DNA of 42,594 nucleotides from Oscillospiraceae bacterium. GTDB taxonomy: Bacteria; Bacillota; Clostridia; UMGS1840. How positions within the stretch are numbered: position 1 is the first letter of the stretch; every line of letters begins with the position of its first letter. A model generated the notes under the pieces. That model was not told where the DNA came from and searched no databases. It saw only the letters and a program-made list of their open reading frames with translations. The translations under genes and the position numbers were made by a program. Below are positions 3,746 through 13,046 of this stretch, piece by piece. The stretch is from contig SVKD01000015.1 in the NCBI GenBank assembly GCA_015068645.1, forward strand, positions 1 through 42,594, written 5' to 3'.

Positions 3746-5107
3746 TTATCCTACAATTACATCTTCTTGGGGATTGACCACCGAATTTTCTCTGCGTTTA
3801 TCCGTGCTGAACGCAAACGCCAGAGAAATAGGTCCTACCCTGCCGAAATACATCGTTAAAATAATAATCATTTTGCCAAAAAAATTCAAACCGCCCGTGT
3901 AATTACGTGTTAAACCAACCGTTGCGGTGGCGCTGACGGTTTCATAGAGGATATCCATAAGGTCTCCGCCCTGCACAACCAAAAGCAGGAAGGTGGAGCC
4001 AATTACCACCAACATGGAAAACAAGAAAACAGCCAGTGCCTTTTTCGCAATTTCCAAAGAAATCTGTCGATGAAACACATCCACCGTCCGTTTGGAGCGA
4101 ATCACTGCCAAAGTTGTCATAAACAAGACGAACAGCGTAACTGTTTTGACACCACCTGCCGTACCTGCGGGAGACCCGCCCACAAACATCAAAAGCAAGC
4201 TCAAAAACGAAGAACCTCCCGTCAGATTTTCCTGCGGGATTGTCGCAAATCCTGCGGTTCTTGTGGTCACCGACTGAAAGAGCGAAACCATCGCTTTCTC
4301 ACCAAATGAATAATTGCCGATCGTCAACGGATTATTGCACTCAAGCAAAAAGTAAACGATACCGCCGCCAATCAAAAGAACCGTAGTGACTGACAGCACA
4401 ATTTTGCTGTGCAGGCTTAAAAAGCGAATGCCACGTCTTCTTTTGTGGCGGAGATTTTCAAAAATGTCAAACCACACCACAAAGCCTAAGCCACCCGAAA
4501 TAATTAAAAACATGGTGGTAAAATTCACCACAGGATTCAACACGTACGGACAAAGGCTTGCACTTCCCAATAAATCAATCCCCGCATTACAGAATGCAGA
4601 AACAGAATGAAAAATGCCAAACCAGATACCCGTCAATCCAAATTCGGGAATAAACACCGTCATATAAAGCAAAGCTCCGATTCCTTCAATGGTGAAGGTA
4701 AGGGCAAGCACCTTTTTTACAAAAACGGCAATCCCGTCCATGGAACTCAAGTTAAAAGAATCGCTGATGAGTATCCTGTCATCCATACCCATTTTCTTTT
4801 TTAAGGAAATCATAAATGCCGCCATTACGGTGACCACACCCAAACCGCCAATCTGAATCAGCACTAAGATGACCGCCTGCCCGAACACACTCCAGGCAAA
4901 CGCAGTGGGCACAGTGACCAGCCCCGTCACACATACCGAGGTGGTGGCGGTAAATAAGGCGTCAATATATGGCACAGGCTGTCCGTTTTGAGAACTGATG
5001 GGCAGACTTAGCACAAAACTCCCCAACAGAACCAATCCGAAAAAACCCAGCAAGATAATCTGCACAGATGAAAATGTTTTTTTCCTTTTTTTCATAACTT
5101 GTTTCAT
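3746..5107 (-). CDS. ktrB: Potassium transporter membrane subunit KtrB (TrkH family)
   Basis: Integral membrane subunit that imports potassium, usually with sodium dependence. The 453-residue protein is almost wholly hydrophobic and shows the four pore-loop repeats with their selectivity glycines: SVCVTGL, SAFCNAGID, TTRTAGFAT and TATVGLTRN. A basic start (MKKRKK) precedes the first membrane segment. It is the first gene of ktrB-ktrA-PocR/AraC, with a strong promoter about 40 bases upstream. The leader of about 30 bases leaves no room for the ydaO-type cyclic di-AMP riboswitch that often controls ktr genes. Confidence 0.93.
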   Translation of the reverse strand: MKQVMKKRKKTFSSVQIILLGFFGLVLLGSFVLSLPISSQNGQPVPYIDALFTATTSVCVTGLVTVPTAFAWSVFGQAVILVLIQIGGLGVVTVMAAFMISLKKKMGMDDRILISDSFNLSSMDGIAVFVKKVLALTFTIEGIGALLYMTVFIPEFGLTGIWFGIFHSVSAFCNAGIDLLGSASLCPYVLNPVVNFTTMFLIISGGLGFVVWFDIFENLRHKRRRGIRFLSLHSKIVLSVTTVLLIGGGIVYFLLECNNPLTIGNYSFGEKAMVSLFQSVTTRTAGFATIPQENLTGGSSFLSLLLMFVGGSPAGTAGGVKTVTLFVLFMTTLAVIRSKRTVDVFHRQISLEIAKKALAVFLFSMLVVIGSTFLLLVVQGGDLMDILYETVSATATVGLTRNYTGGLNFFGKMIIILTMYFGRVGPISLAFAFSTDKRRENSVVNPQEDVIVG

Positions 5108-11760: not shown

Positions 11761-11844
11761 ATGATCACCTCTTATATACAAGTTTATTGTCTCCAATGCA
11801 GGAAGTTTTAAAACAGAAAATTGCGAAATGATTCTATTTTGTTT

Positions 11845-11873
11845 ATTATATCATACCAAAAAAAATTTTACAA
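11845..11873 (-). promoter_or_regulatory. Promoter of the flavodiiron gene
   Basis: Minus strand: TTGTAA (11868-11873), 17-base spacer, TATAAT (11845-11850), giving a leader of roughly 80 bases. Confidence 0.7.
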
Positions 11874-11950
11874 TATTTTTTGAAAAAATTCTATCAAAAA
11901 TCCACGCGCACATTTCGAAATAGCAAACTATCGTATGTTTTTCGTTATAC

Positions 11951-11988
11951 AAAAAGCCCGAAACAGCAATTTTGGTTTCAGGCTTTTT
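11951..11988 (-). terminator. Terminator of the four-helix-bundle gene
   Basis: AAAAAGCCCGAAAC pairs with GTTTCAGGCTTTTT around a short loop. It begins right at the stop codon of the minus-strand gene and could also stop plus-strand transcription. Confidence 0.85.
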
Positions 11989-12339
11989 TCATTTAGATTT
12001 AACTGTTTTTAGTGATGATATTAACATTCTGCGAATAGCACCACATTCATTTTGCATTTTCTTATATTTTTCTTCTTCCATACGATTTGTTTCGTATAGC
12101 AATTCCAACCAATACTCTGTTTCGTAGCACTCCTTTTGTGCTATTTCAAGCTTTGATATGAAATCATTTTTGCTTTGAGCGTATTGCGCTTCGTGAAGAT
12201 TGGCACCAATTGAAGTTGCCGAACGAAGTAGCTGGTTCACCAATACCGATTCTTTATGATTAGATTTAATCTCTCTGCATAGAAAAACCATATCTTTCGC
12301 AAATTGCTTTGCTTTATCTCTCAAAACACTATCTGCCAC
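11989..12339 (-). CDS. Four-helix-bundle protein (S23 / 23S rRNA intervening-sequence family)
   Basis: The 116-residue helical protein matches the four-helix-bundle family first found in intervening sequences of 23S rRNA genes and related to the Avd accessory protein of diversity-generating retroelements. Typical segments are LRSATSIGANLHEAQ and FISKLEIAQKECYETEYWL. No ATG fits. A GTG at 12348 falls inside the binding site, so the GTG at 12339, six bases after AGAGGTG, is the better start. No reverse transcriptase or split rRNA gene is visible. Its 5' flank is an unusual array of micro-hairpins. Function unknown. Confidence 0.85.
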   Translation of the reverse strand: MADSVLRDKAKQFAKDMVFLCREIKSNHKESVLVNQLLRSATSIGANLHEAQYAQSKNDFISKLEIAQKECYETEYWLELLYETNRMEEEKYKKMQNECGAIRRMLISSLKTVKSK

Positions 12340-12379
12340 TACTATCACCTCTACAATAATTATACGACAAAATCGTTAC

Positions 12380-12551
12380 TTTTTCAAGTGATATTCTGTA
12401 CTTTGTACAGAGTGATATTTTTGATAAATCAAAAGTGTTATTAAAACCTTTGGTTTTAGTGGTATTTTATTCGCTAACAAACTGCCGAAGGCAATACAAC
12501 TGCTTAGCAATATCACTTGCAACAGCAAATACCACTCGCCATAAGGCAAAT
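12380..12551. repeat. Array of micro-hairpins joined by AGTGATATT-type spacers
   Basis: Short hairpins with 2-4 base loops follow one another: CTGTAC-TTT-GTACAG (12396-12410), TTGAT-AA-ATCAA, AAAACC-TTT-GGTTTT (12443-12457), TGCC-GAA-GGCA (12483-12493), GCC-ATAA-GGC. The spacers read AGTGATATT, AGTGTTATT and AGTGGTATT on the left and, inverted, AATATCACT and AATACCACT on the right, so the whole array is roughly palindromic. An 83-codon frame through it has no binding site and looks spurious. Confidence 0.75.
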
Positions 12552-12586
12552 AAAACTGCCGAGTGTCCTTAAGAACACTCGGCAAT
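12550..12586 (-). terminator. Terminator of the efp operon
   Basis: The strong hairpin TGCCGAGTGT/ACACTCGGCA is followed on the minus strand by GTTTTATTT, 29 bases past the stop codon of the CD1247-like gene. Confidence 0.75.
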
Positions 12587-12614
12587 TTGCATACCTTTTT
12601 CTTGCTAAAAAGAA

Positions 12615-13046
12615 TTAGTCCTCGCAATCACAGTCACAATCGCAACCGCAGTCACAACCTTCGGGCAGATCCAGTTCAATCTGCTGACGGCAAGAAGGAC
12701 AGTAAATGTCTTCGTTTTCTAAGGTTTCGCCGTCTACATACACTTCTTCGCCACAGTTGGGGCAGGTGATTTCATAAACGTCTTCATCGTCACAGCAATC
12801 GCAGTTACAATCGTCTTCGTCTTCTTCAAATACGATGTCTTCCACGTCTGCCAAATCATCAGACATATTGTCCATTTCTTCCTGAACCATTGCCAGATCG
12901 TCATCGATTTCTTCAATGTAATCGTTCATTTCTGCTAAAACGTCCAGAATGCCTTTGATGATTTTGCCTTCATTGGTGGATTCGTCCACTTTTAAGCCTT
13001 CAGCCAAGCCTTTTAAGTATGCGATTTTTTCGCCGATATTTTCCAT
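12615..13046 (-). CDS. CD1247-type acidic zinc-ribbon protein with Cys/Asp-rich tail
   Basis: The 143-residue protein has three parts. A helical N-terminus (about 1-70, MENIGEKIAYLKGLAEGL) is typical of proteins named after Clostridioides difficile CD1247. A very acidic middle holds the Cys cluster CNCDCC. A zinc ribbon CPNCGE..CPSCRQ (about 93-122) is followed by an alternating Cys/Asp tail (GCDCGCDCDCDCED). The tail could bind metal like a metallothionein, which is inference. It follows efp by 33 bases in one operon. The role of the family is not known to me. Confidence 0.8.
   Translation of the reverse strand: MENIGEKIAYLKGLAEGLKVDESTNEGKIIKGILDVLAEMNDYIEEIDDDLAMVQEEMDNMSDDLADVEDIVFEEDEDDCNCDCCDDEDVYEITCPNCGEEVYVDGETLENEDIYCPSCRQQIELDLPEGCDCGCDCDCDCED

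Follow-up and report, generated by a model that had tools for sequence, protein, structure and literature searches.

The locus described here raises the question of why a gene for a four-helix-bundle protein lies beside an array of tiny hairpins, and whether gene and array belong together. An earlier note on the window (the whole stretch of 42,594 nucleotides that was analyzed) had suggested that they may be one mobile or nucleic-acid-binding unit. We consider it likely that the gene with its array forms the left end of a small mobile element of gut Clostridia that targets transcription terminators, in which a pentamer of the encoded protein (IVP) would bind the linkers between the hairpins, while both this binding and the catalyst of the movement are inferred.

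The gene proved real and its family assignment correct. In profile searches the window protein reached 95.7 bits against PF05635 (E 2e-27, curated cut-off 33.8) and 107.2 bits against TIGR02436 (E 5e-31, curated cut-off 24), and wherever conservation within the clade is at least 90%, it has the conserved residue. The AlphaFold model (pLDDT 95.5) matched the pentamer 2rld (TM 0.92, 48% identity), 2gsc (TM 0.85) and Avd of the ribonucleoproteins of diversity-generating retroelements (DGRs; TM 0.77-0.80, with 4dwl at 0.80), including Avd inside the DGR structures 8ube/8ub7, and by this comparison the window protein is predicted to be a pentamer like the solved family members. PF05635 has been linked to Avd in the literature (PMC10053308), and the kinship with Avd drawn in the earlier note holds for the fold; it stops there, as the genome has no reverse transcriptase. 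The reading frame is open from GTG 12348, with GTG 12339 as the likely start, which sits behind GAGGTG and a TTGAAA-17-TATAAT promoter. The intrinsic terminator behind the gene (Table 1) is element-borne, since a similar one is found 3' of the gene in many relatives.

The array occupies 12387-12583, 5' of the gene, and consists of eight linkers and eight hairpins arranged in two opposed halves. The segments between the linkers are indeed hairpins with loops of 2-4 nt, and the six spacers first listed, four in one orientation and two in inverted form, are all present; two degenerate ones, AATACAACT and AATAAAACT, had been overlooked, and the array runs past 12551 to a terminal palindrome (H0) that had also escaped notice. 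When AGTGN[TC]ATT and its complement are sought throughout the 42.6 kb, those six linkers are the only matches, all within 150 bp, where about three matches, scattered over the window, would be expected by chance. Read in the sense of the gene, H0 is followed by the four forward linkers AGTTTTATT, AGTGGTATT, AGTGATATT and AGTTGTATT, each with a hairpin behind it, then by the strand that closes the P1 stem and by the inverted linkers AATACCACT, AATAACACT, AATATCACT and AATATCACT with three hairpins between them; the inverted half leads into TTGAAA-17-TATAAT, GAGGTG and the start codon. This layout of four plus four linkers is the commonest form, found in 43 of 49 relatives.

Table 1. Features of the element and its surroundings in the window
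Feature	Position	Strand	Basis or remark
Junction expected to hold right end and right terminator arm	11797-11950	minus	neither recognizable
Intrinsic terminator after IVP gene, AAAAAAGCCTGAAAC..GTTTCGGGCTTTTT	11951-11989	minus	predicted from sequence
IVP gene, PF05635/TIGR02436 four-helix bundle	11989-12339	minus	profile matches and structure model
Promoter and ribosome-binding site of IVP gene	12346-12387	minus	predicted from sequence; same position in relatives
Ribosome-binding site GAGGTG	12346-12351	minus	predicted from sequence
-10 TATAAT	12359-12364	minus	17-bp spacer to -35
-35 TTGAAA	12382-12387	minus	overlaps last array linker
Inverted half of array	12387-12466	minus	linkers (plus-strand reading) at 12458 (AGTGGTATT), 12434 (AGTGTTATT), 12411 (AGTGATATT), 12387 (AGTGATATT)
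Inverted-half hairpins	H5 12443-12457, H6 12420-12433, H7 12396-12410	minus	
P1 stem closing strand, minus GCGAATAAAAT	12464-12474	minus	pairs with 12545-12557 (first linker)
Forward half of array	12484-12557	minus	linkers (plus-strand reading) at 12549-12557 (AATAAAACT), 12528-12536 (AATACCACT), 12509-12517 (AATATCACT), 12493-12501 (AATACAACT)
Forward-half hairpins	H1 12537-12548, H2 12518-12527, H3 12502-12508, H4 12484-12492	minus	
H0, left-end palindrome GCCGAGTGTTCTTAAGGACACTCGGC	12558-12583	minus	core recurs inverted at right end of intact elements
Host sequence with A-tract and the left arm of the preceding gene's split terminator	12584-12600	minus	terminator intact in G002, G001, G003, G004
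5S rRNA and 3' end of 23S rRNA, contig edge	42249-42594	minus	

Folded as single-stranded DNA, the window array was far more stable than its shuffles (z = -5.7, none of 200 as good). Across 49 homologous arrays aligned over about 200 nt the linkers are constant while the stems covary, in agreement with the earlier observation that stems change freely and the spacer is kept. RNAalifold recovered 47 pairs, 24 of which show compensatory double changes (the P1 stem, columns 44-157, has such a change inside it), and pairing is kept in 97% of the cells. The covariation score was 0.351, against a mean of 0.130 in shuffled alignments (none of 500 as high, a count that ignores relatedness) and 0.03-0.06 when partners were slid, a control generous to the structure because the structure was derived from the same alignment. 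Covariation of this kind points to a role for the array as single-stranded DNA or RNA, beyond any double-stranded binding sites, and together with the conserved 4+4 architecture and the controls it rules out chance hairpins.

The search of other genomes for the spacer near four-helix-bundle genes was positive. Eighty homologues with 71-90% identity, from mostly draft MAGs of Clostridia/Oscillospiraceae and mostly from the ruminant gut, carry both the gene and the same array, nearly always at other loci, as one mobile unit would. The relatives have several families of linkers (AGTGATATT, TCGATAT, AGCTAAATT, ATGATAT, GTGAAAT, GTGAAGT, ATGAATT and others), which were used in place of a generic 7-mer repeat score because the latter discriminates weakly (62-70% vs. 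9% in controls, yet 30% in distant IVPs). Protein identity averages 83% within a shared linker family and 51% between families, and a protein and its nearest neighbour agree in their linker 87% of the time vs. 14% expected, a comparison that covers 30 of the 49 clade genes (the script assigned no linker to the other 19) and that co-inheritance alone could explain. Taken with the Avd/IVP fold and the covarying array, this tracking of linkers by protein subfamilies makes nucleic-acid binding by the IVP plausible. The genome of the window holds a second IVP gene (L002/L173; contig 2, 28333-28629) with TCGATAT linkers, in which the inverted half-array lies upstream of the gene and the forward half behind it, an arrangement that suggests an array split or permuted around the gene. 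Two further IVP genes (L025, L027) have GAATAATGAAGAATGAATAATG-type repeats at their flanks in place of the hairpin array, and downstream of the first IVP gene at L040 a tandem repeat of another kind, ATGCAGA/TCTGCAT, occurs 13 times in 500 bp.

The unit has moved. Its flanks differ in nearly all 80 homologues, and the sister elements L150 and L154, closely alike in array and IVP, are preceded by different tRNA genes and followed by different genes directly after the IVP stop codon. To the left of H0 the host sequence presents an A-tract and a stem arm, while the complementary arm with a T-tract follows on the far side of the IVP gene, at a distance of 0.1-1.9 kb; an exact complementary arm of at least 12 nt was found in 15 of 63 loci vs. 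2 of 630 swapped controls. Just before the right arm stands a conserved right end (ACTGTCCTTAAGAGTAC or AACATCCTTATGAGAAGT) that repeats the H0 core in inverted form; the ends of the element are H0 and ACTGTCCTTAAG. For 21 elements both ends were recognized, the right-end motif being the sole criterion of choice, and in all 21 the host flanks, once joined, restore a single intrinsic terminator that is split in its loop: the rebuilt stem scored 11.7 on average vs. 1.9 when flanks were swapped between loci, the joined flanks had an MFE of -20.9 vs. -7.4, and loop bases were repeated on both sides over a mean of 3.3 vs. 1.9 nt (none of 5000 permutations as high), which suggests a short target-site duplication of variable length. 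Both ends are recognized in only about one third of the close homologues; some homologues have no H0, or lie at the end of a gene where there is no terminator. At L172 (G007 contig 15) an apparent RumA/RlmD gene ends in 33 nt, at 2873, that are repeated about 1 kb downstream, at 3919, and bracket an element, and the arrays at L046, L054, L056, L057 and L058 directly follow what seems to be the same RumA/RlmD gene. The right flanks of L202, L205 and L230 share a recurrent GGCATCTAAACCATTCGGCTCTTCCA, a possible right-end motif of the GTGAAAT family, which resembles a tRNA 3' end and is followed by tandem arrays. A shortened second copy of the 5' end of the element, H0 with the first hairpin only, lies about 1.2 kb downstream of the gene at L099.

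The copy in the window is intergenic, within the terminator of the gene that precedes it (12615-13046), and the comparison with mobile rRNA insertions does not hold for its location. Empty sites with an intact terminator occur in the four congeners of Table 1. In the closest of them, G002, AAAAAGGCGATGC-GTTA-TGCATCGTCTTTTTTT and no element stand behind the orthologue of this gene (97% identity), where the window has AAAAAGGTATGCAAAT and then H0; the empty site in G004 is syntenic on both sides. Since neither the right end nor the right arm can be recognized, the window copy is right-truncated, and although its ORF is intact it is probably immobile.

What travels with the IVP gene is variable: 89 downstream ORFs fell into 68 clusters, although where an element has no defined right end, the ORFs counted may belong to the host. 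Within defined ends the cargo includes a methyltransferase, a voltage-gated channel, GNAT, peptidase S51, an AraC-type regulator, Nudix and a Y1 transposase-like gene. The last was seen in L088 alone, where a Y1 (IS200-like) transposase relative accompanies an XRE-like regulator. Of 391 genomes, 10 have the left-end pattern, at 26 sites in total, while the reversed pattern used as a control gave 0; there were 12 sites upstream of an IVP gene or remnant, 12 without one and 2 cut by contig ends. The array can stand without the gene: about half of the array-pattern sites and most matches to the Gut-1 RNA family (see below) have no gene nearby. No relative was found among viral contigs with the query used, and a phage origin was dismissed.

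From these data a full element would comprise H0, two opposed Gut-1-like halves, the promoter, the IVP gene, optional cargo, its own terminator and a short right end of ACTGTCCTTAAGAGTAC type. The family of the window inserts into the loop of a terminator hairpin with a short duplication, other families sit directly behind the T-tract and often after tRNA genes, and non-autonomous copies, consisting of the array only or of the array with a decayed IVP gene, are scattered in the same genomes. With the array folded as single-stranded or cruciform DNA, the pentameric IVP would bind the linkers of its own family and bring the element ends to the terminator hairpin, while the cutting and joining of strands would fall to a separate enzyme, probably of the host or acting in trans. 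H0 and the AGTTTTATT behind it resemble a terminator and could act as one, so the element may replace the terminator that it splits, and its insertion would then be harmless.

The IVP itself may be a passenger or a regulator, because we know of no nuclease with its fold and most arrays have no gene; as the last linker overlaps the -35 box, it may regulate its own promoter. We see a smaller but appreciable chance that a conventional transposase or recombinase acting in trans moves the element and that the IVP is a passenger, or an autoregulator controlling the expression of cargo. Short target duplications and ends resembling inverted repeats would fit such an enzyme, as would the Y1-like gene of L088, and the gene-less copies imply that the IVP is dispensable in cis; the overlap with the -35 box speaks for autoregulation. 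Against this, the elements hold no recurrent transposase, the IVP being their sole recurrent gene, Y1 transposases went undetected in 3 of 12 element-bearing genomes (the element-rich G006, 98% complete, as well as G097 and G080), and a pure operator would have no need of covarying stems.

Further evidence came from Gut-1 (RF01706), an RNA described in 2010 from human gut metagenomes only and judged by its authors a probable noncoding RNA (PMC2864571), which Rfam places in the class sRNA and which has been an orphan ever since. Against the Rfam threshold of at least 50 bits in the covariance model, the window stays below with its forward half (12489-12558, 30.7 bits, E 2e-4) and its inverted half (plus strand, 12371-12446, 25.8 bits), while the homologous arrays L047, L155, L107, L119, L112 and L150 score 52-74 bits; by these model matches a half-array is a Gut-1-like unit. 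Gut-1 is present in 24 of 99 genomes of relatives, with up to 39 copies (G007) and only 1 match in the genome of the window, and many copies form opposed pairs, as expected of two-armed arrays. An IVP match accompanies it in 19 of these 24 genomes (one of them, G003, counted only through a weak Avd-like match) vs. 17 of the 75 others (p 1e-6; by family p 0.002), although only 3 of 54 copies above threshold lie within 700 bp of an IVP gene. Each of the 12 clear arrays among the inspected loci, a few others being out of register or at contig ends and hence not counted, has a terminator hairpin directly before it when read by eye; 7 follow tRNA genes and 2 (L226, L227) have an IVP gene. The unit proposed in the earlier note is real, while its ends, its insertion into terminators, its cargo and its identity with Gut-1 had been missed.

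That the array functions as a noncoding RNA, Gut-1, to which the IVP binds in the way that Avd takes part in DGR ribonucleoproteins, seems improbable to us. The sRNA class and the judgement of 2010, the covarying stems with their tetraloops and the match of the fold to Avd inside 8ube/8ub7 agree with it, but little transcription is expected of an array that lies behind a terminator and upstream of the promoter of the gene, and a dispersed multicopy repeat with two opposed halves looks like mobile DNA. A retroelement akin to DGRs or group IIC introns and moved by a reverse transcriptase is very improbable, for although the Avd-like fold and the adjacency to terminators, which recalls group IIC introns, would suit it, RVT_1 is absent from 11 of 12 element-bearing genomes, the window's included, which led us to reject a DGR- or reverse-transcriptase-driven element, and the Rfam scans gave no group II intron match. 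The one exception is G004, where a weak Avd-like PF05635 match lies beside a reverse transcriptase (C7:4283-5765), probably a separate and genuine DGR of this congener.

A mobile element directed to terminators would explain the orphan Rfam RNA Gut-1 as mobile DNA, give the widespread IVP/S23 family a context outside rRNA, and present an element that carries genes and, by inserting at transcription terminators, spreads between different families of gut bacteria. The present definition of linkers, ends, target and partner gene is precise enough to allow binding and mobility to be tested directly.

Among known systems, the intervening sequences (IVSs) of 23S rRNA in Leptospira and Coxiella resemble the unit in being small selfish elements with inverted-repeat ends, a hairpin site and a protein of the same family (IVP/S23p), the Coxiella IVS lying in helix 45 of 23S rRNA (PMC4990558); here, in contrast, the insertion is in or next to intrinsic terminators, and the element has its own promoter, an eight-linker array and cargo. 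Among distant homologues of the class, none of the 11 loci scanned for an IVP inside rRNA overlapped an rRNA family. On the analogy of protein family and published IVSs, we put forward as a hypothesis that the two insertion habits have a common origin. A wider reading, which we regard as speculative and rather doubtful, is that a nuclease-free pentameric IVP is the dedicated mobility factor of a class of mobile DNA and recognizes the folded array and the target hairpin and directs insertion at hairpin tips, terminator elements, Gut-1 and 23S IVSs being one process on different hairpins with a cutter supplied by the host. Gut-1 itself was described as a standalone RNA, and each array half shares its three hairpins and conserved linkers, but here it makes up one of the two arms of an array of mobile DNA, which has a partner gene. 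Dispersed multicopy palindromic repeats, few of them beside a partner gene, occur in the relatives as in REP/REPIN and RAYT systems, although the partner here is a PF05635 four-helix bundle without a Y1 domain, the array is larger and structured, the target is a terminator loop and there is cargo. Avd of DGRs has a similar fold (4dwl), while the genome of the window has no PF00078, no reverse transcriptase was found in the elements, and the PF05635 scores of Avd-like matches elsewhere are much lower. Group IIC introns insert directly behind intrinsic terminators; this adjacency is shared, but there is no ribozyme match and no reverse transcriptase here. For comparison with transposons and MITEs, which have inverted ends and a target-site duplication, the H0 core recurs inverted at the right end, and the duplication is significant yet short and of variable length; the variable single-gene cargo resembles integron cassettes. 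Searches of the open-access literature gave no description of a terminator-targeting unit of this kind, which apparently has not been described so far. As it lacks the defining features tested of DGRs, RAYT partners, group IIC introns and 23S IVSs, we propose that it is a new type of element; should a conventional transposase be at work in trans, the unit would be a novel sort of non-autonomous transposon instead.
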